64,000 nucleotides of DNA from the NCBI GenBank assembly GCA_027563145.1, contig CP071306.1:1054001-1118000 (forward strand). The letters run 5' to 3'. Positions 30,313-45,935 of the stretch are shown here, piece by piece (positions within the stretch are counted from its first letter, which is position 1; every line of letters starts with the position of its first letter). Below the pieces are notes generated by a model that did no database searches, was not told the DNA's origin, and saw only the letters and a list, made by a program, of their open reading frames with translations. The DNA is from Halocatena halophila (GTDB lineage Archaea; Halobacteriota; Halobacteria; Halobacteriales; Haloarculaceae). A program made the position numbers and the translations under genes.

Positions 30313-30391
30313 TCTGTCTCATCGTTCGCCCGGCATGCTAATCACGATTGTGCCGGGTGGATTTTTGCGCCCACTCGATCAAGACCGTGCT

Positions 30392-31519
30392 ATGGGCTCA
30401 CCGCAGACGAACTGGCACCGACGCGCGTGGATCGGCGTTGGCCTGCTCCTGGGACTGTTTTTTCTGTTCGTCGTCTACTCGTTCATCGGAACGGTTGTCT
30501 TTGGGATATTCATCTACTACGCCACGAGACCGGTGCATCGACGACTCGACGACCGACTCAGATACGACAGTCTGTCAGCACTCATCGCACTGGTCGTACT
30601 GGCGCTCCCTGCGCTGGTGTTGTTCTCGCTCGTGGTCGCCGTTGGTGTTGAGCAGTTGTCACGGCTCACCAGGACGATCGATCCGGCCGTTTTTGGCGGG
30701 CTAATGGGCCCCATGCTAGAGCTCCAGGCGAGTCTCTCCGATCCAGCGACGCTTTTCGATCGACTCAGCGGTATTGATCTCGGCGTCGTCGGCCAGATAC
30801 AGGGCGTCTTCGGACACGTTGGGCGCTATCTCGCCACCTTTGGCAACGTTCTGTTGCACCTGTTCGTGATGTTCGCGCTCGCGTTCTATCTCCTCCGCGA
30901 CGGTGAGCGTGGCTATCACTGGTTTGTCGAGCAGTTCGACGACGAGAGCCAGTTGCTTGCCCGCTATCTCCGGGCTGTTGATACGGATTTTTCCTCCATT
31001 CTCTTCGGGAATATACTCAACGCCGTGTTGACCGGGCTGATCGGTGCCATCGTCTATGGACTGCTTAATCGACTCCCACACGGATCGATACCGTATCCCG
31101 AGCTGCTCGGGCTGTTGACTGGCGTTGGGAGTCTGATTCCCGTCGTTGGAATGAAACTGGTGTACGTCCCGGTTGCGCTGTTGCTGGCCGTCCAGTACGG
31201 TAGGACGCCGGGGGGAGCGGGGTTCGTCATCGTGTTCGCCGTCGTCTCGTTCGTGATTGTGGATACGCTGCCGGATTTCATCCTCCGACCGTACGTCTCG
31301 GGGAGGAATCTCCACATCGGGATGGTGATGTTCGCGTACATCCTCGGCCCGCTTCTGTTTGGCTGGTATGGAATCTTTCTTGGCCCGATCTTGCTCGTGC
31401 TTGGCTTTCATTTCGCGAGGATCGTGCTGCCGGAGCTGCTCGGTACCGAAGAAAACGAGGACAGCAACCAGACACAATCCGATGAAGCAAAAGAAGAACC
31501 TGATGGTGCCAGCGGATAG
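30392..31519 (+). CDS. AI-2E family transporter / permease PerM-like
   Basis: A 375-residue membrane protein with about eight helices arranged as in the AI-2E exporter (PF01594) family: an N-terminal pair, a long amphipathic soluble segment (about 95-165), then the conserved LLGLLTGVGSLIPVVGM and DFILRPYVSGRNLHIG motifs. Bacterial relatives export signals or move Na+(Li+)/H+. The ATG at 30392 is preferred over a longer frame that reads antisense through the MgtC gene. The C-terminus is acidic and soluble. Confidence 0.87.
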   Translation: MGSPQTNWHRRAWIGVGLLLGLFFLFVVYSFIGTVVFGIFIYYATRPVHRRLDDRLRYDSLSALIALVVLALPALVLFSLVVAVGVEQLSRLTRTIDPAVFGGLMGPMLELQASLSDPATLFDRLSGIDLGVVGQIQGVFGHVGRYLATFGNVLLHLFVMFALAFYLLRDGERGYHWFVEQFDDESQLLARYLRAVDTDFSSILFGNILNAVLTGLIGAIVYGLLNRLPHGSIPYPELLGLLTGVGSLIPVVGMKLVYVPVALLLAVQYGRTPGGAGFVIVFAVVSFVIVDTLPDFILRPYVSGRNLHIGMVMFAYILGPLLFGWYGIFLGPILLVLGFHFARIVLPELLGTEENEDSNQTQSDEAKEEPDGASG

Positions 31520-31524
31520 CTCGT

Positions 31525-32679
31525 TCAGAAGCCCTTGTCCATCAGCTCGCGCGCGATGACGTTCTTCTGAATTTCGGAGGTGCCCTCGTAGATCTGGGTG
31601 ATCTTCGCGTCACGGTAGAGCCGCTCGACGTCGAAGTCATTGACATAGCCCGACCCGCCGTGGATCTGGACGGCTTCGTTCGCACAGTCGACTGCCACGC
31701 GGGAAGCGTACTCTTTGGCCATCGATGCGAGCGTGGTGAGCTGATCGTCAGCGTTCTCGACGCTCCATGCCGACTTGTAGGTGAGCTGGCGTGCGGCCTC
31801 GGTCTGGGTGTGCATATCAGCGAGCTTGTGCTGAATTGCCTGGAAGTCGCCGATCGGACGGCCGAACTGTTCGCGCTCTTTGGCGTATTCGAGTGCGCGT
31901 TCGTTTGCACCTTTGGCGATACCGACACCCTGGGCGGCCACCATCGTCCGCGTAATGTCGAAGAACTGCATGAGCTGCAAAAAGCCCATTCCACGCGTGC
32001 CAACGAGGTTGTCCTCGGGAACGCGAACGTCATCGAAGATGAGTTCGGCCGTGTCGCTCGCACGAATGCCGAGCTTTCCCGTGATTTTCTCGCTTTTGAA
32101 TCCGTCACGATCCGATTCGATGACGATCTGGGAGAAGCCGTTGTACCGGCCCTCGGCGTCAGGATCGGTCTCACACATTGCAACAAAGTAATCCCCGACC
32201 GATCCGTTGGTGATCCACATCTTGTTCCCGTTGATCACCCACTCGTCGCCGTCTTTTTCGGCCGATGTGGAAACCGATGACACGTCCGAGCCGGTGTCAG
32301 GCTCCGAAATTGCAGCGCCCATGATCGCTTCGCCAGTTGCGACGGGCTCCAAAAAGCGCTCTTTCTGTTCTTCGGTGCCGTATTCGATCAGCGCGTCACT
32401 ACCAAAGGCCGTGGCCGTGAGCGACAGTGCAATGCCAGGATCTGCGGCGAACAGTTCCTCGACGATGATCGCCGTCTCGAGTGCGCTGTAATCAGCACCG
32501 CCGTATTCGATCGGAATCGACGCGCCGTTCAATCCCATCTCGGTTGCCGCCTCAAGCACCTCGAACGGGAATTTTTCCTCCTCGTCGTACTCAGTTGCGA
32601 CCGGTTTGATTTCGTTTTCCGCAAATCGGCGTACTTCTTCCCTGATCTGTTGTTGCTCCTCGGAAAGTTCGAAGTCCAT
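31525..32679 (-). CDS. Acyl-CoA dehydrogenase
   Basis: A 384-residue FAD enzyme of short/medium-chain type. Seen are MGAAISEPDTGSD (flavin contact), the WVINGNKMWITNG strand, and the C-terminal YRDAKITQIYEGTSEIQ with the catalytic glutamate of the EGT motif. It introduces the trans-2 double bond in fatty acyl-CoA or branched acyl-CoA. The ATG at 32679 (MDFELSEEQQQIREE) is chosen; a GTG three codons upstream is possible. A TATATTTTAA-like element (minus strand) sits at about 32700. It is divergent from the hydroxyacyl-CoA gene, which acts on its product. Confidence 0.93.
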   Translation of the reverse strand: MDFELSEEQQQIREEVRRFAENEIKPVATEYDEEEKFPFEVLEAATEMGLNGASIPIEYGGADYSALETAIIVEELFAADPGIALSLTATAFGSDALIEYGTEEQKERFLEPVATGEAIMGAAISEPDTGSDVSSVSTSAEKDGDEWVINGNKMWITNGSVGDYFVAMCETDPDAEGRYNGFSQIVIESDRDGFKSEKITGKLGIRASDTAELIFDDVRVPEDNLVGTRGMGFLQLMQFFDITRTMVAAQGVGIAKGANERALEYAKEREQFGRPIGDFQAIQHKLADMHTQTEAARQLTYKSAWSVENADDQLTTLASMAKEYASRVAVDCANEAVQIHGGSGYVNDFDVERLYRDAKITQIYEGTSEIQKNVIARELMDKGF

Positions 32680-32797
32680 GCCCTCCACTCATACTGGTTA
32701 AAATATAACGATTTTGCGCAGCCGATAAACCTGTAAACGGTTGTTACGGGGGCAATGGGAAACGTTGAACACCGCTCAGTTGGATCCACTAACCGTC

Positions 32798-34765
32798 ATG
32801 GAAATCGATGACATCGACACCATTGCTGTGCTCGGTGCGGGGAATATGGGCCACGGGATTGCAGAAGTGGCCGCCCTTGCGGGTTACTCGGTGAATCTCC
32901 GGGATATCAACGAGGAGTTCGTACAGAACGGCTACGAGCAGATCGAGTGGAGTCTCGGAAAGCTCGCAGAAAACGATCGGATTACCGACGACGACGCCGA
33001 CGCGGCGCTCGATGCGATCACGCCGCTGGTTTCGATGGAAGAGGCTGTCGGGGACGTGGACGTGATCATCGAGGCCGTTCCCGAGCAGATGTCCATCAAA
33101 CAGGACGTGTACGGTGAGGTCGAGGAGTATGCGCGTGCGGACACCATCATCGCGTCGAACACCTCCTCGCTGTCAATCACGGATCTCTCGGAGGTCACCG
33201 AACGAGAATCACAGTTCTGTGGGATGCACTTTTTCAATCCGCCAGTGCGGATGCAGCTCGTCGAGGTCATCTCCGGTGCGCACACTGACGATTCGACGCT
33301 TGACGCCATTGAGGCGCTCGCAGAGGATTTCGGAAAGACGCCAGTTCGCGTGCGAAAAGACACGCCCGGCTTCATCGTCAACCGGATTCTCGTTCCGTTG
33401 ATGAACGAGACCTGTTGGCTGGTGTCCGAAGACGAGTCCACGATCGCCGAGATCGATTCCACCACGAAGTTCGACGTTGGGCTCCCGATGGGCGCGTTCG
33501 AGCTGGGCGATCAAGTGGGCAACGACGTGACCTATCACGTTCTCGAGTACATGAACGACGTGCTCGGCGATGCCTACGAGCCAGCACCGCTGCTCGAGAC
33601 GGTGATGGAAGAAGAGCGCTTCGGGAAAAAGACCGGCGAGGGATTCTACGACTACGAGAACGGCGACGGCGTCGATATCCCAACCGACGCGGGGAGCGAG
33701 GAGATCAAACAGCGGTTGCTCGCCACGATGGCCAACGAGGTTGGTAATCTCGTCGGCGACGGCGTCGCTCCGCCCGAAGACATCGATCAGGCCGTCCAGC
33801 TCGGTGCTGGCTACCCCGAGGGGCCCGCGAAGATGGCGGATGCGGCCGGTCTCGAATCGCTCGTCGAACTCCTCGATGAGCTCTACGAAGAAACTGGTGC
33901 AGAGCGCTATGCGGTCTCTGATGGGCTTCGTGAGCACGCCGACGCAGGCGGCTTCTACGATGACGACGAGGAGGAGGGCATCGAGTACGACGCCGTTCGC
34001 GTCGAGTATCCCGGCGAGATGGTCGGTCAGATCGTTCTCGATCGCCCACACCGGATGAACACCGTCAGCCCGCAGCTGCTCGAAGAACTTGAGCACGCGA
34101 TCGAGACGCTCGAAGATGACGACGAGGTCCGGTCGATCCTGCTCACCGGCGCTGGCGATAAGGCGTTCTCGGCCGGCGCGGACGTGCAGGCGATGGCTGC
34201 CAACGCCGATCCGCTTGAGGCGATCCAGCTCTCGCGGACGGGCCAGCAGGCATTCGGAACGCTTGAGGAGTCCGATCTCCCGGTCGTTGCTGGTATCGAT
34301 GGCTACTGTCTCGGCGGTGGCATGGAGCTGGCCACCTGTGCGGACATGCGCGTTGCAACCGAGCGCTCTACCTTCGGTCAGCCCGAACTCGATCTCGGAT
34401 TGCTTCCCGGCTGGGGTGGCACGCAGCGCCTCCAGAAGATCATTGGCCAGGGACGTGCCAAGGAGGTCATTCTCACCGCAGAGCAGTATGACACCGAGAC
34501 GATGGCCGACTACGGCTTCGTCAATGAGGTTGTCGACAACGACGAGCTCGAGGACGCTGCGTTCGAGCTTGCTGCCGATCTCGCAGCTGGCCCACCGGTC
34601 GCCACCCGATTCACCAAGAAGGCGATGCTCCGTGGCTGGGAGGACGTTGACGCCGGTTTGGAGATTGAATCGCAGGCGTTCGGCCATCTCATCAACACCG
34701 ACGATCTGATGGAAGGCATCACCGCGTTCATGGGCGACGGCGACCCCGAGTTCGAAGGGAAATAA
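32798..34765 (+). CDS. 3-hydroxyacyl-CoA dehydrogenase / enoyl-CoA hydratase fusion
   Basis: A 655-residue bifunctional beta-oxidation enzyme. The N-terminal dehydrogenase has the NAD loop VLGAGNMGHGIA (about 11-22) and the catalytic region HFFNPPVRMQLVE, with a C-terminal HAD domain to about 395. The C-terminal crotonase part (about 405-655) has AGIDGYCLGGGMELA (oxyanion hole) and GLLPGWGGTQRL (catalytic Glu region is GQPELDLG). The order dehydrogenase-then-hydratase is that common in archaea, the reverse of bacterial FadB. It is divergent from the acyl-CoA dehydrogenase. Confidence 0.93.
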   Translation: MEIDDIDTIAVLGAGNMGHGIAEVAALAGYSVNLRDINEEFVQNGYEQIEWSLGKLAENDRITDDDADAALDAITPLVSMEEAVGDVDVIIEAVPEQMSIKQDVYGEVEEYARADTIIASNTSSLSITDLSEVTERESQFCGMHFFNPPVRMQLVEVISGAHTDDSTLDAIEALAEDFGKTPVRVRKDTPGFIVNRILVPLMNETCWLVSEDESTIAEIDSTTKFDVGLPMGAFELGDQVGNDVTYHVLEYMNDVLGDAYEPAPLLETVMEEERFGKKTGEGFYDYENGDGVDIPTDAGSEEIKQRLLATMANEVGNLVGDGVAPPEDIDQAVQLGAGYPEGPAKMADAAGLESLVELLDELYEETGAERYAVSDGLREHADAGGFYDDDEEEGIEYDAVRVEYPGEMVGQIVLDRPHRMNTVSPQLLEELEHAIETLEDDDEVRSILLTGAGDKAFSAGADVQAMAANADPLEAIQLSRTGQQAFGTLEESDLPVVAGIDGYCLGGGMELATCADMRVATERSTFGQPELDLGLLPGWGGTQRLQKIIGQGRAKEVILTAEQYDTETMADYGFVNEVVDNDELEDAAFELAADLAAGPPVATRFTKKAMLRGWEDVDAGLEIESQAFGHLINTDDLMEGITAFMGDGDPEFEGK

Positions 34766-34820
34766 CGACCGCGGCTATCATTTTCCGAACCGTGAAGTGA
34801 TCGGTCGCTGTCCGGTCCCT

Positions 34821-35252
34821 ATGGCGATCCATCCTACTGCGTCAATCCAGGACAGCACCGTCGAGACCGAGCACGTTCGCGAGTTCGTCACCGTGCACGA
34901 TTCGACGATCGAGGCAGACAGTCGGCTCTACGAGCGTGTTTCAGTGAAAAAGTCGGTGGTGGGTCCGCACGTCGATATCAACGCCGGCAGCTATATTGAA
35001 AACGCGGCGATTGAATCGCACGTGCAGATTGGCCCGAACGCGTCGGTTGTGGGCGTCACCCATCGGCTCAGCGAGGCGTCGGGGATGGAACACCGCAACG
35101 ACCAGTTTGAGGAGATCGTCCTCGAAACGGGGGCGTTCGTTGGCGCTGGGGCAGTGGTGCTTCCCGGCGTTACGGTGGGAACGAACGCCGTGATTGGGGC
35201 GAACGTCACCGTGACGGATGATGTGCCCGAGGGGGTTGTTATCCGTGGGTAG
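34821..35252 (+). CDS. Hexapeptide-repeat (left-handed beta-helix) acyltransferase-like protein
   Basis: A 143-residue protein made of [LIV]-G-x4 hexapeptide turns, for example VVGPHVDINAGSYIENAAI and GAFVGAGAVVLPGVTVG; it should form a trimeric beta-helix. It belongs near the gamma-carbonic anhydrase/acetyltransferase group. The anhydrase zinc histidines are not clearly present, so an acyltransferase or binding role is as likely. ATG at 34821 is used; a GTG eight codons upstream is possible. It is the last core gene before the accessory region. Confidence 0.8.
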   Translation: MAIHPTASIQDSTVETEHVREFVTVHDSTIEADSRLYERVSVKKSVVGPHVDINAGSYIENAAIESHVQIGPNASVVGVTHRLSEASGMEHRNDQFEEIVLETGAFVGAGAVVLPGVTVGTNAVIGANVTVTDDVPEGVVIRG

Positions 35253-35319
35253 CTCTCCCATGTGGTTGGTTGCATAAGCGGCCACGAAAGGCCATGCTTA
35301 TTACCCAGTGGTGCTCACC

Positions 35320-35403
35320 TGGTAATACGCTCGGTTGGTGTAGCCCGGCCAATCATGCGGGCCTTTCGAGCCTGCGACACGGGTTCAAATCCCGTACCGA
35401 GCA
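35320..35403 (+). repeat. 84-base direct repeat, left copy (includes tRNA-Glu)
   Basis: Identical over 84 bases to 40683-40766. It includes the whole tRNA-Glu gene and the nine bases before it. Flanks differ on both sides. The two copies are 5363 bases apart in the same direction and enclose the accessory cassette. Confidence 0.9.
35329..35403 (+). tRNA. tRNA-Glu (anticodon TTC), copy 1
   Basis: Acceptor GCTCGGT pairs with ACCGAGC; the anticodon stem CGGGC/GCCTG encloses loop CTTTCGA, giving TTC; the T arm is ACGGG-TTCAAAT-CCCGT. The discriminator is A, and CCA is not encoded. 75 nucleotides without an intron. An identical gene lies at 40692-40766. Confidence 0.95.
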
Positions 35404-35543
35404 CATAATAAATCCTTCACTTCTTAGTGTAGCAAATAACTGAGTGGCACTTACAGTCCTTTCATGGTGTTGTCGGTATAGCGGACGAATGGTACAGTCT
35501 GCGAGCCTTCAGCAGTACGTTTCCTTTATTTTGGAGTATCTCT

Positions 35544-36140
35544 TCAGACTCCATCCGGTCGCCCGTAGTCAGCCAAGAAGGGTTCATCATCAATCACGAC
35601 GAAGTTTTCTGCCCGAAGCTCTTGGAGGTTGAGCGGAAACATTGCCAGCTCCGCCGTGGCCCGCTGTAAAAGTGGACGTCCTTCTTCTTTTGGTAGCTCC
35701 GTGAGTGGTTCACCATATGGCATGATTAGCCATCGGAATCGACGCTGATGATGATCTGGAACTGGGAGCAGCGGCCAATCGCCCGAGATACCGTGGCGAT
35801 GCCATAGTACAGCTTCACGTTTATTTTGGACAAACCCGCTGGAAAACAGATCGTCTCCGAACCGGGCCAATTTCACGACATAGTTTGCGAGCGATGACTC
35901 GACGGGAAACTGAAGCACACACCGTGCAACACCGATGCCAACGAGATCAAAGCCGTCGTCAAGTAACGGTGATAGTATTGTTTGTTCACTTTCGTGGATT
36001 GTCGATCGTTCCTCACTATCCGGTGAGCAGCCATCTCGCACCGCCTCCTGATCAAGTCTGTCGGTACAGTAACACAGATCAGTTGCAATGCGATTGATTC
36101 TCTGTCGCTCATCCTCTGGTAGTAACCGTTTGGTGGACAT
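35544..36140 (-). CDS. Degenerate protein-kinase-fold protein, haloarchaeal
   Basis: A 198-residue protein. I read kinase-like landmarks: NYVVKLARFG with a VxK-type lysine (K90), KREAVLW with a possible helix-C Glu (E109), a hinge-like RWLIMPYGEPL (about 136-146), then LRAENFVVIDDEPFLADYG (about 175-193), in which N179 and D191 correspond to the catalytic-loop Asn and DFG Asp. The catalytic HRD-type Asp is absent, so it is likely a pseudokinase or small-molecule kinase relative. It is divergent from the peptide gene across a 156-base AT-rich gap. A role in the RiPP cassette is not shown. Confidence 0.45.
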   Translation of the reverse strand: MSTKRLLPEDERQRINRIATDLCYCTDRLDQEAVRDGCSPDSEERSTIHESEQTILSPLLDDGFDLVGIGVARCVLQFPVESSLANYVVKLARFGDDLFSSGFVQNKREAVLWHRHGISGDWPLLPVPDHHQRRFRWLIMPYGEPLTELPKEEGRPLLQRATAELAMFPLNLQELRAENFVVIDDEPFLADYGRPDGV

Positions 36141-36260
36141 ACACCATACTGAAGAATGGGATAAAATAAATCATTTTAACAATATTGGTATCACAGAAAT
36201 GGATGCCAGTGAATTTGATTTAGTGACATGTAGAATATAATACCTAATAATACAATAGAT

Positions 36261-36270
36261 TTTTATATTA
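36261..36270 (+). promoter_or_regulatory. TATA-like box of the 41-residue peptide gene
   Basis: TTTTATATTA is centred about 31 bases before the ATG at 36297, so a transcript would start only a few bases before or at that ATG. This is the main support that the small ORF is expressed. Confidence 0.55.
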
Positions 36271-36296
36271 TATGTGCGTGTATAGTACAGTAGACA

Positions 36297-36422
36297 ATGG
36301 GTAACGATAATAATGTCCTCGATTCAGGCACAGGCAAAGCACCAGAATACAACAAATCTGATACTGTGAGTCTCATCTCTTTGGCCCAGAAAGGGATTAA
36401 AGATAAGCTCATACGAAAGTGA
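36297..36422 (+). CDS. 41-residue peptide, candidate RiPP precursor
   Basis: Encodes 41 residues: an acidic/polar N-terminal half beginning MGNDNNVLDSGTGKAPEYNK and a C-terminal half that would form a cationic amphipathic helix (SDTVSLISLAQKGIKDKLIR, ending in Lys). A TATA-like box 31 bases upstream fits a leaderless message. It stands 79 bases before an asparagine-synthetase-like gene of the lasso-cyclase group, the usual place for a precursor. Against a classic lasso precursor: no YxxPxLxxxG leader motif is clear, and no acidic residue sits 7-9 positions after an obvious cleavage site. It resembles no family I know. Confidence 0.5.
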   Translation: MGNDNNVLDSGTGKAPEYNKSDTVSLISLAQKGIKDKLIRK

Positions 36423-36501
36423 AGACACCAACAGTATTCTATTATAAAATACCATATCTTTACTAGTACATCTTAGCAACCTCTGATTTGTTTTCCATAA
36501 T

Positions 36502-38328
36502 ATGAAGAGTGAATTTCATGCATGTATTGATCACCAAGAGAGGACTACAGAACCTTGCTTTCGTGAATATTGGATAAAAGATCGACTGAAAAGAGAATCC
36601 ATCCGTGAGGGGAATGTATCTCTTCATGTCGATAAGTACGAGCACCTTCCAATTTTGCACGAATTGTATGTGACCGACAACGAATTGCTCATCGCCTTTT
36701 CGGGCGAGCTACACGATATAAGCCATGATTTCCATCGCCAGTCAGAAATATCATTCACTACAAGAACGACGTACGACATTCTTGCAGTTGCATATCGAAC
36801 GTTCGGCTGGTCATTTCCCAAGCATTTAATCGGTGATTATCACGTTCTCATAGCCGACTATTCACAAGATCGACTACTCGCTGGCCGAGATCACGTAACA
36901 GCAGATCCACTCTACTTCGCAGTAAAGGACGGTGCAACGTTGGTGAGCACCGATCTGAGTGCCCTAGCTAACGAAATTCAGGCCGATGTGAACGAAACAT
37001 ATCTGGGACAGTATCTGACCGGTACCATCGAATCTCCTCGTAAAACGTTTTATGACAACATATACAGAGTTCCACCTGGTTGTGTCGTGGTGTCGTCACC
37101 CGATACGACACAAGTGAGGCGATACTATCATCCCCATCCTGATAATCGCACTACGTATCGATCCAAATCCACCGAGGAGTTGGCAGAGACTTTGCGAGAG
37201 TTACTTGAAGACGCTATCGACTGTCGAACCATTCAGACGGAGACAGTAGGGGTATTTATGAGCGGTGGAGCCGATTCGACAGCCCTTGCTACCATCGCGA
37301 ATGATCAAGCTTCGTCGTCCTCTCTGAAGACGTATTCCTACACGTATCCATCTACCACTGCAATCAACGAGAATCAAGGCATTGAGGCCGTCGTCAGCGA
37401 AAAAGGACTCCACAACGAACAAATCAGCGTCGACGATTACTGGGTGCTGAAGGATAAGACACTCTACGAACGAGCGTGGGCCTATGCCCCTGCTGTCGAT
37501 TCTCTACTCCAACCGAAACATGAATTGATACAACGAGCAGCAGCTGATGGCGTAGGAACGGTGCTTGTCGGTGACAACGGTAATATGCTGGATGGTTATC
37601 GAATATCAATAGCCGATGCGTTCGCCACCGGACAGTACCTTGATGCGATTAAAACAGCCCAGGAAGATCCAACATACACGACTCTGGCCTGTCTAGTACA
37701 GTACGGTCTTTTTCCGCTCTTGTCAATCGGCGAAGTAGAGTATCTACCTCCAAGACAGGTTCAATCGCCCGTAAGAGATCGGCTTTCCGACCACATACGA
37801 ACTCAGGTGGAGGATATTCGGCGATCGCCCCGGCGATGTAAATCACTTCAAGCTCACAGTGACCAAGCTCTCTATCGTGCGCTCACCTCCCCGATTTTCG
37901 ACTACCGATACGACATTTTCCGTAAGATAGCTAAGTATCACGGGGTAAACGTCATTGATCCCTATCAAGACCTCCGCCTTGTTGAGTTTGTGTTCGATCT
38001 TCCGCTGACAGCGAATCTCCAACGCGGATATAACAAAGCTATCTTCCGCCGTGCACTGTCTGACGTATTACCGAAACAGATCCTTACTCGACGCAAAACA
38101 GACCGCGTGGAGGAAGAGGTAGCGGACGGGTTGCGCCAGGAAATAGAGTATCTCGGATCACTTCTTTCGGAGTCATATCTTACTGACTACGGTATTGTCT
38201 CCGATCGTCGTTCAATCCCTGACCTACACCAAGCTATAGACGCGTTCGGGTCACTCGAAACGGCTGATGTAGATCTATGGCAGCACATATCTGCGCAAGC
38301 ATGGCTTGAACAGCGACAGAGCAAGTAA
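36502..38328 (+). CDS. Asparagine-synthetase-like protein (lasso cyclase type)
   Basis: A 608-residue protein with an N-terminal Ntn-like glutaminase domain (about 1-215) and a C-terminal synthetase domain. The N-terminal Cys nucleophile (M-C) is absent (starts MKSEFHAC), so it cannot release ammonia from glutamine that way; this is common in enzymes that use a peptide amine. The ATP-pyrophosphatase loop SGGADS (254-259) is intact, but the second nucleotide motif reads GDNGNMLDG (357-365) instead of G-x-G-G/S-D-E. Size and architecture match lasso peptide cyclases (ring closure between an N-terminus and an Asp/Glu side chain). An asparagine synthetase paralogue with another amide product is the alternative. 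Base composition is AT-richer than the core genes. Confidence 0.65.
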   Translation: MKSEFHACIDHQERTTEPCFREYWIKDRLKRESIREGNVSLHVDKYEHLPILHELYVTDNELLIAFSGELHDISHDFHRQSEISFTTRTTYDILAVAYRTFGWSFPKHLIGDYHVLIADYSQDRLLAGRDHVTADPLYFAVKDGATLVSTDLSALANEIQADVNETYLGQYLTGTIESPRKTFYDNIYRVPPGCVVVSSPDTTQVRRYYHPHPDNRTTYRSKSTEELAETLRELLEDAIDCRTIQTETVGVFMSGGADSTALATIANDQASSSSLKTYSYTYPSTTAINENQGIEAVVSEKGLHNEQISVDDYWVLKDKTLYERAWAYAPAVDSLLQPKHELIQRAAADGVGTVLVGDNGNMLDGYRISIADAFATGQYLDAIKTAQEDPTYTTLACLVQYGLFPLLSIGEVEYLPPRQVQSPVRDRLSDHIRTQVEDIRRSPRRCKSLQAHSDQALYRALTSPIFDYRYDIFRKIAKYHGVNVIDPYQDLRLVEFVFDLPLTANLQRGYNKAIFRRALSDVLPKQILTRRKTDRVEEEVADGLRQEIEYLGSLLSESYLTDYGIVSDRRSIPDLHQAIDAFGSLETADVDLWQHISAQAWLEQRQSK

Positions 38329-38422
38329 CAATACATTTTATTTGTAATTTGTGAGTGCGTTAAAGTATCACATTTACTCCACTGCTCCGTACTACTAACT
38401 CGCTGTCTGTGGTAGAGGAAGT

Positions 38423-40201
38423 ATGACACAGTCAGCGCTTGATATCTTTTCTTCCCTTCCATCGTTCGCGGCTCCGACGGTACTTCCCGAGGAAGAGGCT
38501 ATCGCATACTGGTGGTCTGTGGATGACACGGTTTCTCTCCGGATCCATGACCTATCACAGGACACAATCAATATCATCCCACTCGATCGTCATTCACTCA
38601 CATTAGAAGGAGAAGAACCCCTACATTGGATCGGTGATGGGTTTCTCATACAGAGCGATCCCAATGTTTATTTTTGCGAGTGTGACGGCAGTGTCGAGAC
38701 TGTTTCGTTTGGTGCTCCCGAGACGTACACGTATATTATCGACATCGATTCCAAGACACATCGTGTCTTGTATACCCACTACGATGATCCGTGGACGCTC
38801 CGACTTTCGGAGGCCGATGGAAAGCAGTCAAAAGTGCTGACAGAGCATCCCGAGCAAAGTGGCCACGCAGGGTTTAGTCCGGATAGACAGTGGCTTGCCT
38901 ATCGTGAAAATCCCACCGAATCGTTTGGGGCCGGTCGGATCGTCATTACCGATCGGGCTGGCGAGCAAGTGAAGACAGTTAATATCGGGGAGGCCTCAGC
39001 ACGGACTCGCCTCCGAGGTTGGCACCCAGACAGTCAACGGCTGCTCATTGATGATCGTTCAACGGGCTGGTATCGTGTCGGCCTCCATGACTGGCAAGTC
39101 GAGGACACCACGTGGTTCGGGGACGGCGAGTACAACGAATATCCACTCACCATCACATCTGCTGGTAGCCAACTCATTACAGTTCGCAGTCACGCCGGCC
39201 GTAGGAGTGCGATCGTTTATTCTATCCACAACCCAGCAGATGGCTGCCAATTTGATCTCCCCGAAGGTGTGGTGGATCGGACGCCTGTACAGCCTCCGGG
39301 CATGACGTTTGCGTCCGATATGGTCTATCTCGTTCACGAAACGGGGACATGCCCGCCTCAGCTTCTTCAGTATGACCTTGAGACGGACACCATTACGGTG
39401 CTCATCGACACCGCGACGTCAGCACTCACTGCGTGTTCACTCGTTGAACCCGCACATGTAACCTACGATGCCCCCGATGGACAATCGATCAATGCCATAC
39501 TACACCGAGCATCAGAAACTCCTTCGCCCGCCGTCGTGGTCGTGCATGGTGGACCAACAACGGCTGTTACTTGCGGTTTTGACCCATTTGCGCAGTATCT
39601 CGTATCCGAGGGATACACAGTCCTTCAGCCGAACTATCGTGGATCAACTGACCAGGATCGTGGATTCGAGCGAGCCATTAAGGGCGATCTCGGCCGGGGC
39701 GAGGTAGATGATGTTGCAGCTGGTGGCCAGTGGCTGGCTGAACAGCCGTGGGTTGATGATAACCGGCTTGCAGTCTTTGGGCATTCTCATGGTGCGTACA
39801 ATGCGGCCCTACAGGCGGTCAGTTATCCCGAATTATGGAGGGTCGTTATCCCCGAAAATGGATATCTTGACGCCGTGGCAGTGTTCAACGAGCCAAATCT
39901 CTATGCACAGCGTCGCATCATTGATAACCAGACGTGTGAAACGACTAAAGCGTATCTCCAGTCCGTAAGCCCGATTCACCGTACAGCAGACGTTGGATGC
40001 CCGGTCTGCATCATTCAAGGAGAGGACGACGCCACTGACCAAGCTAGAGCGTTTGCCGACGGGCTTCGAGAACGAGGTTGGACAGCTGGTGAACAGTTTC
40101 GACTCGAAATTATTGAGGGAGAAGGGCACGTTATTCAGAATAAGGCCCAGCTCTGGGGGCTTATTACCGATATACTTGAAATATATGTCGGATGCTATTA
40201 A
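38423..40201 (+). CDS. S9 family (prolyl-oligopeptidase-like) serine peptidase
   Basis: A 592-residue protein with an N-terminal beta-propeller (about 20-345) and a C-terminal alpha/beta-hydrolase domain. The catalytic triad is visible: Ser455 in FGHSHGAYN, an Asp at about 535 (GEDDAT), and His569 (GEGHVI); the oxyanion strand is VVVHGGPTTA. S9 enzymes cleave short peptides inside the propeller cavity. Known lasso-peptide isopeptidases (AtxE2 type) belong to this superfamily. Lying 94 bases after the cyclase-like gene on the same strand, it may process or open the peptide product, or serve for immunity. A free-standing oligopeptidase is the alternative. No signal peptide. Confidence 0.8.
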   Translation: MTQSALDIFSSLPSFAAPTVLPEEEAIAYWWSVDDTVSLRIHDLSQDTINIIPLDRHSLTLEGEEPLHWIGDGFLIQSDPNVYFCECDGSVETVSFGAPETYTYIIDIDSKTHRVLYTHYDDPWTLRLSEADGKQSKVLTEHPEQSGHAGFSPDRQWLAYRENPTESFGAGRIVITDRAGEQVKTVNIGEASARTRLRGWHPDSQRLLIDDRSTGWYRVGLHDWQVEDTTWFGDGEYNEYPLTITSAGSQLITVRSHAGRRSAIVYSIHNPADGCQFDLPEGVVDRTPVQPPGMTFASDMVYLVHETGTCPPQLLQYDLETDTITVLIDTATSALTACSLVEPAHVTYDAPDGQSINAILHRASETPSPAVVVVHGGPTTAVTCGFDPFAQYLVSEGYTVLQPNYRGSTDQDRGFERAIKGDLGRGEVDDVAAGGQWLAEQPWVDDNRLAVFGHSHGAYNAALQAVSYPELWRVVIPENGYLDAVAVFNEPNLYAQRRIIDNQTCETTKAYLQSVSPIHRTADVGCPVCIIQGEDDATDQARAFADGLRERGWTAGEQFRLEIIEGEGHVIQNKAQLWGLITDILEIYVGCY

Positions 40202-40682
40202 ATAGCACCAAAGTGCAAGTTTGTCACTATCTAGCTGAGTAATATTGAGAAGTGACCTGGTTGATAATATTCTCGTGAAAAGATGCTTGCAGACATGATC
40301 ACTGAGAGCTATGGAACTGACTAGGAAGAACCCAGCGAACATTTCGAAATCGCATCTTTCAGGTCATCAAGTTCTCCCGACAACTTCGAGGTCGATATCC
40401 GCAGTAGCCATCCCACCGGTGTCAATTTCGCCGGATGACTGATTGAATAGCCGTTGTGATTGTTTGACTGCTGAGACGTATCGACAAAGATCTTCGCGGT
40501 GATCAAGCGCGTGGTACCATCCGTCCCCACTTCCGATATACCCCGCATCTCGAAATCGCATGAGGGTGGTTATGGCAGTTCAATGTGGATAGCAAGTTCC
40601 TCAGTAGTTTTGTAACCTGTCCGCAGGAGCTTTACTTCAGTCCTGGTGATCGCTTCAAACCAACTACGGTAGTTCTGTAACT
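40202..40682. other. Intergenic region with a possible decayed gene (minus strand)
   Basis: About 480 bases between the S9 peptidase gene and the second tRNA-Glu. Two minus-strand open frames at 40321-40561 overlap in different frames: one contains HNGYSISHPAKLTP, the other GDGWYHALDHREDLCRYV. Neither is convincing by itself, which suggests a small gene broken by a frameshift. No RNA gene or terminator is clear. Confidence 0.35.
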
Positions 40683-40766
40683 TGGTAATACGCTCGGTTG
40701 GTGTAGCCCGGCCAATCATGCGGGCCTTTCGAGCCTGCGACACGGGTTCAAATCCCGTACCGAGCA
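40683..40766 (+). repeat. 84-base direct repeat, right copy (includes tRNA-Glu)
   Basis: Right-hand copy of the repeat at 35320-35403, identical base for base. It marks the right edge of the cassette with the peptide, cyclase-like and peptidase genes. Confidence 0.9.
40692..40766 (+). tRNA. tRNA-Glu (anticodon TTC), copy 2
   Basis: Identical to the tRNA-Glu at 35329-35403, including the folded arms and discriminator A; the eight bases before it are also the same. It appears functional. Confidence 0.95.
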
Positions 40767-40958
40767 GTGGTTTTTCAAGCGGTCAACGTGGATAGCTCAG
40801 CTCTTAAGATTGGGTGGCGACTGCTGAGAGGTCTTACGATAACGATCAGTGGACCGTACTCGATCGTTCAGTAATTGCTTCTATGGGTCTTTATGAATCT
40901 CGGAGGACTGCTTGGTCTCTAAGCAGTCAATTGTGGTTTCCACATCGATTGGATCGGG

Positions 40959-41280
40959 TCAGTTGGAGACGATATCGACAGCGCCATTCATTGACATGTA
41001 CGTGTCGCCGTTCCACTCGTTCCAGCCCAGCAGCTCCCGCTTGGAGATAATGTGATTCATTAGCAGATGGTCCTTCATGACCAGCGTCGGGACCCGTACT
41101 GCGTGACTTCTGGGCCGGCGTGACCTTCATTGGTATCAGCAGTCAGGTCCTTACGCACAGCAATCTCCAATCCAGTTACGTCCACAATCTACGAAGTGAG
41201 ATCAGTGTGATCGCACCCTGGTTCATGGCTGTTCAGCCAATTCACGGTACTGTCACGGTATGGACCTGAAACACGATGAC
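40959..41280 (-). pseudogene. Decayed thioredoxin-fold-like gene
   Basis: Two minus-strand segments read as one protein in different frames. The first, about 41280 to 41085, gives RDSTVNWLNSHEPGCDHTDL, then a TAG, then VDVTGLEIAVRKDLTADTNE, and ends TQYGSR. After a frameshift the second gives VPTLVMKDHLLMNHIISKRE and stops at 40959. The 'xYGxRxVPTLVxxxxL' join is the cis-proline region of thioredoxin-like folds, and PGCDHTD could be the decayed active-site turn. One internal stop plus a frameshift indicate a dead gene. The family call is inference. Confidence 0.4.
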
Positions 41281-41336
41281 AAAGTGAGCAACGGGCGAGA
41301 ATCAGGAGATTACAGCGCCGAATTCCGCTTGCTTTT

Positions 41337-42055
41337 TTAGGGGATTTCGAGGAGCTGATGAGCCAGTTCCCGAGGCATCGACACCATTGGCCAATGTCCC
41401 GTCTCTAGTTCGTGAAGCTCCCACTCCCTCTGGTCGCACAGTTGTCGAATCGTATCGAGAATGGAGTCGTCCATTCCGTTCTGGGTGCAAAGGATGTAGC
41501 TAGTGGGTAGTGCTGCAGTGTCCGGATTACCGACGTTCACCGACTGTTTGAACGTGTTCAGTGGATGCGGGACTGCGTTTTCCCGCAGCCACTGCGTGTC
41601 CTCATCCGAGATACCCACCCAGCCCGGATGGGAATCTGGCAACGGCCAGCCACCAGCATGGTCTTTCGCGGCACGTTCCATCGCGTCCCATTCGTCAGGG
41701 GGATAGAACGCTGATACCGAAATGGGTTCGTCATCCATCGGGACCAGTGCATCCAGATAAATGACGTGTGCGAGCCGTTCAGGAACCCGTTCTGCTACAC
41801 CCGTCACTACAAGCCCAGCATAGCTATGTCCGAGGAGGACAACGTCCGTGAGCTCGTTGTATTCCAGCGTATTCACAATGTCAGTGATGTGTGTTTCGAG
41901 GCTGATCTCTTGGCACATGAGTGTTCTCGTTCACCAAGTCCAGTGAGCGTCGGAGTATGGACGTCATGGCCTTCATCACGGAGCAACGGAGTGAGATACT
42001 TCCAGCACCAGCCGCCAAGCCATGCACCGGGGACGAGAACGTATTGCCGTGCCAT
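41337..42055 (-). pseudogene. Alpha/beta hydrolase, frameshifted
   Basis: Two overlapping reading frames together form a complete hydrolase of about 235 residues of the RsbQ/pyrethroid-hydrolase-like group. The first part starts at 42055 with MARQYVLVPGAWLGGWCW and reads to TPTLTGLGEREH; the second continues from MCQEISLETHITDIVN (41918) with the nucleophile elbow LLGHSYAG and a C-terminal His in ELETGHWP. The homologous text would run GERxHLM..., so the loss of one base near 41920 explains the shift. A sequencing error would produce the same pattern. All later catalytic parts remain intact, so the loss is recent. Confidence 0.75.
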
Positions 42056-42145
42056 GGTTCTCAAACGGGTGTGAAGGTGATATAGTTCTCCGTACCAGAA
42101 TAAAGGTGAGTTCGTTAGTGACGGCATCTATTGCATCCCACAAGG

Positions 42146-42156
42146 AAATATATAAG
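42146..42156 (+). promoter_or_regulatory. TATA-like box of the small membrane protein gene
   Basis: AAATATATAAG is centred 30 bases before the ATG at 42181; it is a close match to a haloarchaeal TATA box. Confidence 0.55.
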
Positions 42157-42180
42157 ATTCTATATGGATATTCCATACAC

Positions 42181-42645
42181 ATGGTGAATATTGGAACGGG
42201 ATCCACATCTAGTCACACTAAAAAAGCTCCGTGGCATCTGTGGTTTGTGGCGCTATTTTTTCTACTACTGAATATTTTTGGGCTATATGATTATATTATG
42301 GTTCTTGAACTCAATGAAGCATACTTCAAATCACAAAACTTCGGAGCATCCATCATCACTTATTTCACAGATTATCCGCTGTTGCCACGGATATTCTGGA
42401 CGATAGGTGTTGTGAGCGGTGTGATCACACCTGTTCTGCTGATGTTGCGAACCCGTTGGACAGTGTGGCTTGCCCTCACTTGTGTTATTTCCCGAGGATG
42501 CCTACATCTTATCACGTTTGGATTTATGGATCGGTGGAATGTGTTTGGACTCTGGCTGTCTCTTTTCGATACATCAATTTTCCTGTTGACTGTCGGACTC
42601 TATCTCTATTGCCGGCGAATGTCTGCTCGTGGTGTGTTGCAATAG
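42181..42645 (+). CDS. Four-helix membrane protein, unknown function
   Basis: A 154-residue protein with four predicted membrane helices (about 17-37, 62-85, 92-112 and 119-140), a pattern seen in small haloarchaeal DoxX-like or sensor-like membrane proteins. No catalytic residues stand out. The ATG at 42181 is chosen because a TATA-like box lies 30 bases before it; a longer in-frame extension would overlap the hydrolase pseudogene. The gene is AT-richer than core genes. Function unknown. Confidence 0.6.
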   Translation: MVNIGTGSTSSHTKKAPWHLWFVALFFLLLNIFGLYDYIMVLELNEAYFKSQNFGASIITYFTDYPLLPRIFWTIGVVSGVITPVLLMLRTRWTVWLALTCVISRGCLHLITFGFMDRWNVFGLWLSLFDTSIFLLTVGLYLYCRRMSARGVLQ

Positions 42646-42714
42646 ATTTTTTCTGAGGAGTATTTCGCAGGAGAGACCGTTGCATATATGTAGTCCAGAT
42701 TAGATGTGTTGAAG

Positions 42715-42856
42715 TGGTGAATCCGACCACGGCGGCTGTATCTTTCGATTCGAGTATGGCAACGACATCGACGAGTTCAAAACTACAGAGGTGGCCGAGA
42801 GCGACGGGCTCTTGCTCGGCCAAAAAAAAACTTTTGAGCGTGAGAATAATCCGTGA
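42715..42856 (+). pseudogene. Fragment of a RibD/DHFR-like reductase gene
   Basis: About 46 codons in one frame read SDHGGCIFRFEYGNDIDEF, then EVAESDGLLLGQKKTFE before a stop. This resembles the 'FxYGDDxDxFKxxEVxExDALLLGRxTYE' stretch of RibD-C reductases, with no start codon and no remainder of the enzyme. A run of nine A at the GQKK position may be the site of a frameshift. It is an isolated remnant. Confidence 0.5.
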
Positions 42857-42959
42857 AGCACGATAATCAGACTGAGAAAAAGGGTGAATGACTTTTTCTT
42901 ATCTTATATATCCCTAATAATCGCGAGTTTATTATTATTTGCTATACATCTGTACTACT

Positions 42960-43370
42960 ATGGAATGGTCACCACTCACACCAGAATTACTTGTTTCAGA
43001 TTATCAGAAGAGCCTCTCGTTTTATGTTGAAACGCTTGGATTTACCGTTGAGTATGCCCGTGAAGATCCATTGTTCGCCTATCTTTCCATAGAAGGTGCT
43101 CAGCTCATGATTGAAGAGCGGTCGGATAACGAATGGTGGGTAACAAGTGAGCTGAGTCATCCATATGGAAGAGGAGTGAATTTTCAGATAACAGTCAATT
43201 CTATTGATCCGTATGCAAACCGCCTCATGGATGATGGCTACCAGCTATTTGAAGAGATTCGGGAAGAGTGGTATCAGGTAGACGAAGTTGAACGTGGTAA
43301 TAGACAATTTTTAATTCAAGACCCGGATGGGTATCTTCTCCGGTTTATGGAACACATAGGCACGCGTTGA
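42960..43370 (+). CDS. VOC family (bleomycin resistance/glyoxalase-like) protein
   Basis: A 136-residue protein with two beta-alpha-beta-beta-beta modules. The first is LLVSDYQKSLSFYVETLGF, and the end has the typical FLIQDPDGYLLRFMEHIG. This pattern is that of the bleomycin-resistance/glyoxalase superfamily; metal ligands are not complete, so a binding protein is more likely than a glyoxalase. The ATG at 42960 has a TATTATTA-like box (42928-42937) 27 bases upstream. It is a single-gene transcript in the accessory region. Confidence 0.8.
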   Translation: MEWSPLTPELLVSDYQKSLSFYVETLGFTVEYAREDPLFAYLSIEGAQLMIEERSDNEWWVTSELSHPYGRGVNFQITVNSIDPYANRLMDDGYQLFEEIREEWYQVDEVERGNRQFLIQDPDGYLLRFMEHIGTR

Positions 43371-43639
43371 GTGGTTGCACTCCGTGGGGAGTCATTGCGA
43401 TTGGCGAAGTACGTACTGACGAGCGGACATACCTACCATCGTTGGTCTATGACGCACAGCATTAGCCCACAACAGATAGTAACAATCATGCAGATGATAA
43501 ATTTCTACTAATTAATTATTGTAAATTAACTATAATTTCGATATCTTGGTGGCTAAATTCGTACAATTGTCAAAGAGAGTGCTTATAGAGACTGTTCTGA
43601 TTGATCACACAACGCCATTGAAATCCAACACATACGAAA
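43371..43639. other. AT-rich intergenic region, no gene seen
   Basis: The gap between the VOC gene and the next promoter. The stretch around 43500-43545 is very AT-rich (AATTAATTATTG and similar). No convincing ORF, RNA fold or terminator was found. Confidence 0.45.
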
Positions 43640-43648
43640 CTTTATAAC
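43640..43648 (+). promoter_or_regulatory. TATA-like box of the micro-operon
   Basis: CTTTATAAC is centred 32 bases before the ATG at 43676. It would place the transcript start at or just before that ATG, driving the three-gene set 43676-44422. Confidence 0.5.
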
Positions 43649-43675
43649 CCAGTGGGTTGGCACAATCAATTGGGA

Positions 43676-43792
43676 ATGCCAGCCCGCGATGTGGACGCGC
43701 GTATCAAATCGCGCCGGGTGGTAGGACACCCGACGCTGGGGTTCCCATACGGTGAGGTAACCCATGAAGGGAAATGCACCGCGGTACTGTAA
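43676..43792 (+). CDS. 38-residue peptide of the zinc-protein micro-operon
   Basis: Encodes 38 residues starting MPARDVDARIKSRRVVGHPT and ending GKCTAVL. A TATA-like box 32 bases upstream makes it the first ORF of the transcript. It is basic at the start and holds one Cys and two His. It resembles no family I know. It could be a leader peptide or the 5' piece of a larger, disrupted zinc protein, as the next small ORF begins only 16 bases after its stop. Confidence 0.4.
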   Translation: MPARDVDARIKSRRVVGHPTLGFPYGEVTHEGKCTAVL

Positions 43793-43808
43793 TCCTGTCG
43801 TATCGTCA

Positions 43809-43901
43809 ATGACTAGCACACGGTGTGCTCGCTGTGGGCAGCCGGTGGCTCGTCCACGGGCACACGCAACGGGCTGTCCGTCGTGGAGGGTTGGCTCGTG
43901 A
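43809..43901 (+). CDS. 30-residue zinc-finger microprotein
   Basis: Encodes MTSTRCARCGQPVARPRAHA followed by TGCPSWRVGS. C6 and C9 form a CxxCG knuckle, and H19 and C23 could complete a zinc site. CPxCG-type microproteins are frequent in haloarchaea. Its stop TGA overlaps the GTG start of the next gene (GTGA), a strong sign of translational coupling and hence that it is real. Confidence 0.5.
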   Translation: MTSTRCARCGQPVARPRAHATGCPSWRVGS

Positions 43902-44422
43902 GTCTCCCGCAGTTCAGCTTCCGGACGGTAGATGGTCAGGTCAGCACACTCGAAGGGATCGATGATCGAGACGAGCTTTCCTCTGCTGAACTGCATCACG
44001 TCGTGGATATCGCCGAGAATTGCTGGTGTCGGCCTTGTCAGTCAACGGAGTGCAGACACAGTCGTCAGGTGGAGGAAGTGCTGGCGATCGCTGATCTGAG
44101 CGAGCGCTCGGGCGGGGGTCCTGATGCGCTTCCGTCCCTGGATCGGATCACTCGGTTCCGTTCGCAGGGCGAGACGATCTACACCGCCTGGTTCGACAAT
44201 GATGCTCGGCTTCGGGCGCATGAACAACGGAGCGGTGACGTTACGCTGCTGGCGTTCTCGCCTGATCGTCCGGAGGATCCGGCTCGAGCGCAAACACAGG
44301 ATGAGGCTGTGTCTGCCGCGAGCTGTTTGCTAGAGGCTGTCGTTCCGTTCTGTGAGGCGCGGTCAACCGAGGAACTTCCAGTGATCCTCCAGCTGTTGGT
44401 CTCTCCAGCGCACGACGAGTAA
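43898..44422 (+). CDS. SWIM-type zinc-finger-like protein, unknown function
   Basis: A 174-residue protein from GTG 43898, which overlaps the stop of the microprotein. The segment CWCRPCQSTECRH (about 47-59) has the C-x-C-x7-C-x-H spacing of SWIM zinc fingers, which bind DNA or proteins. The rest is a mixed alpha/beta region without a motif that I know. Similar small SWIM proteins occur on haloarchaeal plasmids. An in-frame extension upstream to 43823 exists, but the overlap argues for 43898. Confidence 0.55.
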   Translation: MSLPQFSFRTVDGQVSTLEGIDDRDELSSAELHHVVDIAENCWCRPCQSTECRHSRQVEEVLAIADLSERSGGGPDALPSLDRITRFRSQGETIYTAWFDNDARLRAHEQRSGDVTLLAFSPDRPEDPARAQTQDEAVSAASCLLEAVVPFCEARSTEELPVILQLLVSPAHDE

Positions 44423-44469
44423 CCTCATCGGAGGGATTTTTCGAAACCGCGTGTGGCTAGAATCACCCA

Positions 44470-44496
44470 CCGCGAGCGCAGCGAGCGGCCTTTTTT
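44470..44496 (+). terminator. Hairpin with T-run after the SWIM gene
   Basis: CCGC and GCGG (44470-44473, 44485-44488) close a short stem, and six T follow at 44491-44496. The stem is only four to five pairs, so it is a weak terminator; archaea often need only the T-run. It lies 48 bases after the stop at 44422. Confidence 0.4.
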
Positions 44497-44518
44497 CATC
44501 AACGTTTTTTGATCGAGC

Positions 44519-44836
44519 GGTTGCCGAAGGCAACCCGAGATTAAAAAAGGTTGGGCAGTGTGACCACAGACCCCCCAATAACCCCTGACCCCAGGGAGGT
44601 CTGTGGTATATGACTGTTCGATGAACGAATTAACGACCCGAGAACTCCCAGATCGCCCGAAGGCTTCAGCACAAGCGCAATCACAGTTTCCAACCAGAAC
44701 GACTGTAATCTCACCTAACACTTCTATCGAAATTCCATCACATACTAATAGTGGTAATTCGATGTGGTAAGTATACACATCCTACTGGGACAAAACCGGT
44801 TGCCCGGTTTCCCCCGGACGTGCTTCAACACGTCCG
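44519..44836. repeat. Group of four perfect or near-perfect palindromes
   Basis: Within 320 bases without a gene: GGTTGCC/GGCAACC at 44519-44535 (3-base loop); ACCACAGACC/GGTCTGTGGT at 44563-44607 (10-base arms); AAACCGG/CCGGTTT at 44793-44810; CGGACGTG/CACGTCCG at 44815-44836, ending 20 bases before the coiled-coil gene. The density is unlike the other gaps of this window. They could be operators, a replicon or single-strand-origin remnant, or RNA hairpins in the leader of the next gene. Confidence 0.5.
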
Positions 44837-44855
44837 AGGATGGGTTGGATTGAAT

Positions 44856-45797: not shown

Positions 45798-45935
45798 CGT
45801 ACGCTGGATATTGCTAGCTATTGCGATCCTCATAACATCCATCTAGAGACTAGCTCACGACGACCGTGAGCGGAAATATCAACCCAAACCCTCAAAGGTG
45901 GATAAAGTCCCATTTACAATCAGACCTCACTAACG

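Follow-up and report, generated by a model that had tools for sequence, protein, structure and literature searches.

A tRNA-Glu-bounded island of Halocatena halophila encodes a candidate leaderless, core-first lasso-like peptide system

According to PMC10368454, a lasso peptide carries a ring in which the amino end is joined to an Asp or Glu at position 7 to 9. Its typical pathway is described as comprising three genes, which encode a precursor that starts with a leader, a B protein that combines a RiPP (ribosomally synthesized and post-translationally modified peptide) recognition element (RRE) with a leader peptidase, and a cyclase (PMC13352647, PMC10368454). Archaeal lasso clusters with B1 and B2 proteins are already in print (PMC10093198), and a canonical cluster of this type is annotated in Halopiger xanaduensis. 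In the open-licence literature searched, no leaderless or core-first (B2-free) lasso system was found in archaea. Here, we analyzed a stretch of 64,000 nucleotides (nt) from Halocatena halophila (contig CP071306.1, positions 1,054,001 to 1,118,000), referred to as the window, which holds a 5.3-kb island between two tRNA-Glu genes. As an earlier note on this DNA had described, the island carries a small open reading frame (ORF), a cyclase-like ORF and an S9 peptidase ORF on one strand (Table 1).

In our assessment, the chances are evenly balanced that the conserved peptide, the lasso-cyclase-like enzyme and the S9 peptidase of this island yield a leaderless lasso-like ring peptide, closed from Gly1 to Asp8, with the core first and a follower last. 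Somewhat more tentatively, we propose that haloarchaea hold a second natural lasso class with inverted precursors, in which the core is N-terminal, a follower stands in for the leader and RRE, the cyclases form a distinct clade, and a methionine aminopeptidase is used, with an S9 peptidase finishing or untying the product in Halocatena. The start methionine of the 41-residue peptide would be removed by the general methionine aminopeptidase, in place of the B2 leader peptidase. The cyclase would then adenylate an Asp or Glu side chain and join it to the freed amino end, Gly1 to Asp8 in the window peptide, giving macrolactams of 8 or 9 residues across families, with the C-terminal half of the peptide serving as the follower that the cyclase holds. 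Both ring and threading are inferred. Threading of the tail as in true lassos is among the least sure points, as is the step in which the S9 peptidase would trim the follower or later open the product. The earlier note had suggested a reduced or different peptide-amide system. A system of the lasso kind is what we favor, and not a reduced copy of an ordinary cluster, because the cyclase lies on a separate branch, YxxP leaders are missing (0/17, below), and the peptides read core-first.

The window cyclase has an intact SGGxDS motif, and its start, MKSEFHAC, leaves it without the glutaminase Cys-2. Among the NCBIfam models, the lasso cyclase model NF033535 matches best (192.5 bits; cut-off, 525), followed by asparagine synthase (AsnB; 157.7 bits; cut-off, 267.1). 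This upholds the description of an asparagine-synthetase-like protein of lasso-cyclase build without the glutaminase Cys, and the profile check that the earlier note called for favors the lasso model, with neither cut-off reached. Cyclases from loci without a B2 gene (B2-less cyclases) behave alike. The lasso model outscores the AsnB model in nine of the nine scored, by 10 bits (L051) to 93 bits (L074). The eight other than the window's score 119.5 to 311.4 bits against NF033535, versus 606.1 and 585.8 bits for two canonical haloarchaeal controls. In a maximum-likelihood tree of 49 proteins (midpoint-rooted for drawing only; L032, a near copy of the window cyclase, and L045, of 529 aa, were left out), all 15 B2-less cyclases share one side of a branch supported at 100/99. 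The 25 canonical cyclases form a group in which L050 is the one additional row. A third group consists of eight asparagine-synthetase-like rows starting with MCGI; the L038 branch is long (1.94), and 15 rows have an unusual letter make-up. SGGxDS is kept in 15/15 B2-less cyclases and none of these rows has Cys-2 at its likely start, while eight of the nine "other" rows start with MCGI. Judged by tree and motifs, the cyclases without B2 are one separate group.

These data bear on two alternatives. The first is an ordinary asparagine synthetase beside an unrelated short ORF, as the names in public records (asparagine synthase-related protein, asparagine synthetase B) would have it. The absence of Cys-2, the AsnB score short of its cut-off and the tree position apart from the MCGI proteins led us to reject it, and with the short ORF conserved as well, it is scarcely credible. 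The clustering among ordinary asparagine synthetases that the earlier note had named as a danger to its reading did not occur. The second alternative has the cyclase act on a small molecule, like beta-lactam synthetase, or amidate proteins, with the small ORF encoding a regulatory or immunity peptide. It is in line with the predicted fold, for which the nearest solved structures among the matches listed are TsnB9, beta-lactam synthetase and AsnB, with no entry named lasso cyclase among them. We nevertheless consider it rather unlikely, as the lasso model beats AsnB throughout and each clade locus that was read has a same-strand peptide of similar size whose sequence varies by family, which fits a substrate better than a fixed regulator.

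The B protein, reported missing in the earlier note, is indeed not recognizable in the window genome. No match to a PqqD-type RRE was found in the whole genome of the window, the one genome in which B1 was sought. A single PF13471 match (27.8 bits; cut-off, 26) spans 45 of 117 positions and sits in a 773-aa frame. Going by this partial match, we do not take the frame for a lasso B2; in the family, 100 of 146 genomes show a PF13471 match of some sort, often equally partial. A home-made B2 profile found none in the stretches that were fetched for the B2-less loci, and for G261, G147 and G152 the search covered these stretches only. In addition, cyclase genes scoring over 370 bits were scanned for a same-strand small ORF with YxxPx[LIVMFAT] within 450 nt. 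Such an ORF accompanies 18 of the 21 cyclase genes at B2 loci, in all 18 cases downstream (for example, MSGNKDSSQYSPPELTEYGSIESVTEQVNKEGVASDQWSENTPLLGSIQPAPT in L112), and 0 of the 17 B2-less genes. From these gene sets, the cyclase genes with B2 and a YxxP ORF are identified as canonical lasso clusters. Four canonical-branch genes have no B2 in their stretch; those of L035 and L049 have a YxxP ORF, and the two of L041 do not. One canonical precursor (L044, 8865-9020, +) ends in a run of Gly-Arg/Lys repeats (KGKGRGRGRG...), an uncommon feature in a lasso core.

An ordinary lasso cluster whose B gene is lost and supplied in trans, or one in decay, would follow the earlier note's idea of a reduced system and could appeal to the PF13471 match over the cut-off. 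That match is fragmentary and of a kind common in the family, the cyclase and peptide of the window are intact, the peptides of other loci are under purifying selection, and the clade is separate; we therefore regard this explanation as improbable.

The peptide gene itself was correctly picked out in the earlier note as a 41-codon ORF with its own TATA-like box. Its reading frame opens one codon upstream of the Met, and six-base TATA-like words begin 35 to 29 bases upstream of the ATG. In Halocatena pleomorpha (G041; locus L034), a 42-aa frame with 15 columns identical to the window peptide occupies the same place upstream of the cyclase gene. Because this homologue precedes the H. pleomorpha cyclase, we regard the 41-aa ORF as a real gene on comparative grounds. 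P0030, a peptide from a metagenome, resembles both of them (55% identity over 73% of the query). Its contig and that of the metagenome cyclase P0005 are equal in size (3,023 bases), which suggests that the two share a contig.

Fifteen peptide sequences in 10 families, P0030 included, were collected beside B2-less cyclases. When numbering begins with the residue that follows the Met, position 1 is occupied by G, A, S or T and position 8 or 9 by an Asp or Glu in 15/15 sequences and 10/10 families. A core that begins after the Met would thus offer a free amino end and an acid at position 7 to 9 in every case. The peptides start with GNDNNVLD (window), GDKKKSKHD (H. pleomorpha), SKGDSGTD (L037), SGKGNITE (L051), GTDHVKAD (L033), GLWLTGTD (L074), AYTGTEPD (L038), GGACGCTSD (L107), GIGFYPAYD (L108) and GDYRGSSD (L111); family D starts with STPPDSIE from its second Met and with GQKMSTPPD from its first. 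The most lasso-like of these cores are GIGFYPAYD... (G152 C26) and GLWLTGTD... (G261). In family A, G1 and the acid are kept while the intervening residues vary and include one insertion. It was adjacency and homology that led to families A, B and C. A wider scan considered every ATG ORF of 34 to 56 codons on the cyclase's strand within 500 nt, leaving out L032, L045 and cyclases under 370 bits and, in the control set, L041, L049 and L035, with no B2 in their stretch. Around the 15 B2-less genes, 11 of 30 ORFs fit the pattern, compared to 2.1 expected, and 11 of the 15 genes have a fit; the four others are the L036 and L037 cyclases far from the peptide, and L043 and L071, with peptides beyond 500 nt. 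The six later-picked loci with their peptide inside this range (L033, L038, L074, L107, L108 and L111) give six fits among eight ORFs, with 0.8 expected.

Five of the families are conserved differently at the two ends of the peptide. Those of L033, L074, L107, L108 and L111 resemble one another over the last 18 residues (0 of 400 shuffles score as high), with no such likeness over the first 20 (p 0.47); their C-terminal ends include PPEEIKELFELE, APEEVKHQLR, PPKDVEDFIRTRR, EDVQVSDFLRRNGD and SAASRILRRNR. All 15 peptides together gave no useful alignment. This pattern bears on a macrolactam RiPP, of the lasso type or another, in the usual order, with an N-terminal leader, a C-terminal core and a peptidase that is encoded elsewhere or is the S9 itself. 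Lasso precursors generally have N-terminal leaders, according to PMC13352647, and the [QED]Y[ND] motif in the peptides of families A to C is reminiscent of the Tyr in leader motifs. In contrast, none of the 17 B2-less genes has a YxxP ORF nearby, the window genome has neither a PqqD match nor a full B2 match, the five families are alike at the C-terminal end and unlike at the N-terminal end, and, in the Lys-rich C-terminal part of the window peptide, no acid lies 7 to 9 residues after the Gly. We consider the usual order unlikely.

Several observations weigh against the leaderless, core-first build that we prefer. Shuffling the residues of one representative per family reproduced the 10/10 pattern in 2 of 100,000 trials (7 of 100,000 when only the first 25 residues were shuffled), a flattering figure, since seven families (D to J) were chosen after the pattern had been seen in A to C. 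For seven of the 15 peptides (G041, L036, L037, L074, L107, L043 and L045), the ATG used as the start lies within a longer ORF; hints about the start site come from L036, whose upstream GTG is GTC in L037, and from P0030, close to the G041 peptide and predicted from the same Met. The family D peptide and its cyclase are 1.1 kb apart. The acid at position 8 or 9 is not specific by itself because canonical leaders at B2 loci fit too: near 21 such genes, 11 of 36 ORFs fit (3.7 expected; 9/21 genes), all 11 being canonical YxxP precursors with the acid in the leader near the Tyr. Its weight comes in combination with the absence of a YxxP leader and of a B2 and with the similarity of the C-termini. 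Families A, B, C, D and G are not significantly alike at either end (C-terminal p 0.17, N-terminal p 0.21), and the cores of the window peptide and several others are very hydrophilic, unlike typical lasso tails. On the enzyme side, the window cyclase stays under the curated lasso cut-off, and its Lys512, which aligns with the beta-lactam synthetase Lys, is replaced in 2 of the 15 B2-less cyclases (L043 and L107). For the absence of a B gene, the window genome is 94.6% complete, B1 was sought in this genome only, and the PF13471 match exceeds its cut-off. Moreover, there is no exporter within the island of the window, and the catalytic part of the H. pleomorpha S9 lies off its contig.

The peptide gene and the lasso-cyclase-like gene are found side by side in Halocatena and a few relatives, with peptides of 38 to 53 residues. 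The closest genome found, Halobacteriales archaeon YIM A00013, has a cyclase 99% identical to that of the window, and the same genus group includes H. pleomorpha, with a 52% identical cyclase, and Halocatena salina. Four further loci of the genus (L036, L037, L051 and L071) have cyclase-like genes beside an S9 gene, with 19 to 24% identity to the window cyclase. The gene order is cyclase-S9-cyclase-peptide in L036 and L037, cyclase-peptide-S9 in L051, and cyclase-S9-peptide in L071, and all four have a same-strand peptide gene of 41 to 42 aa, the slot of which varies accordingly. Every locus of the clade that was read has a same-strand peptide gene of similar size, with a sequence that differs between families. 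As for the earlier question whether peptide, cyclase and S9 travel together, the peptide and cyclase do, joined by an S9 in several loci of the genus; in the stretches fetched for members of the clade outside the genus, queries with cassette S9 proteins gave nothing beyond a weak match in L108. Relatives that never have the small ORF or the S9 gene beside them, the other outcome named as adverse, were not what we found. Ratios of nonsynonymous (dN) to synonymous (dS) substitution rates of about 0.14 for the L036/L037 peptide pair (dN, 0.06; dS, 0.43) and 0.3 for L043/L045 (dN, 0.11; dS, 0.36) indicate purifying selection; in two further pairs, dS is saturated and dN equals 0.40 and 0.48.

For a census of the order, a profile of 14 cyclases was run against 392 genomes, 64 of which matched at E 1e-60. 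A class search with a clade profile (391 genomes, E 1e-100) returned 19 genomes, one of them absent from the order census (G478) and scoring in the canonical range. In both wide searches, three candidates per genome were scored, so that copies were missed; L051 and L071, for example, are not in the lists. Twenty further stretches, plus the earlier ones, were scored for cyclases and for B2, with a B2 profile built from one seed. The B2-less type was placed in nine genomes of the order census (G000, G028, G041 to G044, G147, G152 and G261), with one to two genomes per peptide family. A protein search with a 15-row cyclase profile gave 29 matches. Apart from the window cyclase itself, 10 of them closely resemble the window type, and the 18 others are not among the rows of the tree.

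Other genes were observed around B2-less cyclases. Exporter-type ATP-binding cassette (ABC) transporter genes lie near two of them (L033, 3856-5781, +; L036, 14499-15941, +), that of L036 ending after 480 codons, inside the ATPase domain. A glycosyltransferase gene adjoins the cyclases in L036 (6038-7186, -) and L037 (13063-14226, +), as does a phosphotransferase (APH) gene in L043 (8120-9175, +); both are possible tailoring enzymes, and the genes of L036 and L043 were the ones scored. On a plasmid of H. salina (L150), the cyclase is cut to 529 residues, and the family D peptide ORF (5717-5881) is absent from the plasmid's gene table, which is itself incomplete.

The 592-aa protein belongs to the S9 family (PF00326, 111.8 bits), and its likely catalytic triad is invariant in 10/10 aligned S9 proteins. 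The predicted fold (mean pLDDT, the per-residue confidence score, 71.9) suggests a propeller-hydrolase build, with S9 and acylaminoacyl peptidases as the nearest structures and no entry named lasso isopeptidase among the 50 fold matches listed. An S9 peptidase as in lasso clusters, which the earlier note had in mind, is present in family, fold and position beside the cyclase, and is not a recognized lasso isopeptidase (20 bits against NF033523; cut-off, 400). The S9 gene is complete in six loci (window, G044 C1, L036, L037, L051 and L071). In H. pleomorpha, the first 162 residues are on the contig and match the profile of the S9 set, with 25% identity to the window S9 over 123 residues and 37% to L077, another S9 of the same genome. 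Because of these two values, the slot in H. pleomorpha is taken to be filled by a different S9. Three cassette S9 queries had no match at E 1 or better in L033, L038, L045, L074, L107 and L111, and the match in L108 spans 81 residues (E 3e-4). The S9 may cut back the follower, complete the C-terminus or, like lasso isopeptidases, open the product. We lean, with low confidence, toward trimming because most other families of the clade seem to manage without an S9. Separately, a window-type S9 remnant of 105 residues (76% identical) lies in L043 (817-1131, -; G043:C4), about 5 kb from a different B2-less cyclase, and is possibly the trace of a lost cassette. The window's own genome has an S9 gene (L073, 5502-7268; G000:C1, 61-74 kb) 59% identical to the L051 cassette S9, with no cyclase match in the surrounding 13 kb; its G044 counterpart (L072) likewise stands alone.

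The two tRNA-Glu genes lie in an 84-bp identical direct repeat (35320-35403 and 40683-40766, by scripted comparison), one in each copy, in agreement with the cassette between identical tRNA-Glu genes noted earlier. Its supposed AT-richness relative to the flanks is plain on the left (GC content of 0.489 versus 0.593 for 25000-35328); on the right (0.553 for 40767-51000), the first 4 kb is AT-rich too (0.50). GC content at third codon positions (GC3) is 0.44 to 0.51 in the three cassette genes versus 0.76 in the left neighbor. The sister genome, G044, has the same island arrangement as the window. In G042 and G043, one tRNA-Glu lies in the 12.3 kb beyond the same left neighbor, on a contig without a cyclase; the site is not cleanly empty, with 1.3 and 5.5 kb of other DNA intervening. 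The corresponding 12.3-kb stretches of G040 and G039 contain no tRNA. The island looks acquired because GC and GC3 are low between repeated tRNA-Glu genes and G042 and G043 have a single tRNA-Glu without the cyclase. No integrase was noticed among the island ORFs, no integrase profile having been run. A virus was also rejected: viral contigs, when scanned, yielded 105 matches to the pattern and no relative. The 198-aa ORF, which diverges from the cassette, is identical in the sister genome and had no tblastn match in the other compared loci. Just right of the island (41337-42127, -), an alpha/beta-hydrolase is apparently split over two frames, and the profile match of the fragment at 41337-41918 begins at profile position 56.

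Table 1. Features of the island and its borders, in coordinates of the window
Feature	Position	Strand	Basis
tRNA-Glu (TTC), left	35329-35404	+	ARAGORN; within left repeat copy 35320-35403
198-aa ORF without a known family; uncertain member of the system	35544-36140	-	divergent from cassette; no Pfam or NCBIfam match
TATA-like box of peptide gene (putative)	36262-36273	+	sequence only
41-aa precursor peptide MGNDNNVLDSGTGKAPEYNKSDTVSLISLAQKGIKDKLIRK (candidate)	36297-36422	+	homologue before G041 cyclase; metagenome protein P0030; same peptide in G044
Predicted ring segment, Gly1-Asp8 after Met removal	36300-36323	+	inferred from acid at 8/9 in 15/15 peptides
Lasso-cyclase-like enzyme, 608 aa	36502-38328	+	NCBIfam, tree, motif columns, fold
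S9 peptidase, 592 aa; likely triad S455, D536, H569	38423-40201	+	Pfam, invariant columns, fold
tRNA-Glu, right	40692-40766	+	ARAGORN; within right repeat copy 40683-40766

If the core-first build is true, it would be a new way of making such peptides, in which a peptide's own first residues are ringed after Met removal, and a natural two-gene route of peptide and cyclase would show how little suffices to tie one. It would also give access to a set of archaeal products that are overlooked when a search relies on B proteins, YxxP leaders or the NF033535 cut-off, and a compact cyclase would be at hand for engineering N-terminal macrolactams.

Compared with the known lasso clusters (A, B1/B2, C), the system shares a Cys-less cyclase of AsnB build, an adjoining small precursor gene, and a spacing of amino end and acid suited to an 8- or 9-residue ring. 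It differs in having no B2 nearby, no YxxP leader and an N-terminal core reading, and in a cyclase that scores below the NF033535 cut-off on its own branch. The lasso peptide pseudomycoidin can reportedly be made in vivo without its leader and leader peptidase, going by the title of Zyubko et al. 2019. Its natural cluster is bacterial and has a B2 protein; here, in contrast, the natural gene itself would be leaderless. Clusters related to that of pseudomycoidin are treated in PMC8498205. The presence of an S9 beta-propeller and alpha/beta-hydrolase gene beside the cyclase is consistent with the isopeptidase-bearing lasso clusters of AtxE2 and SpI-IsoP, as described in PMC9266682. However, the window S9 reaches 20 of the 400 bits required of lasso isopeptidases and is nearest to acylaminoacyl and other S9 peptidases. 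Finally, the proposed order resembles bottromycin in logic only, with the core first, the start Met removed and a C-terminal follower; the bottromycin enzymes, an amidohydrolase and an M17 peptidase according to PMC10885120, differ from those of the island.

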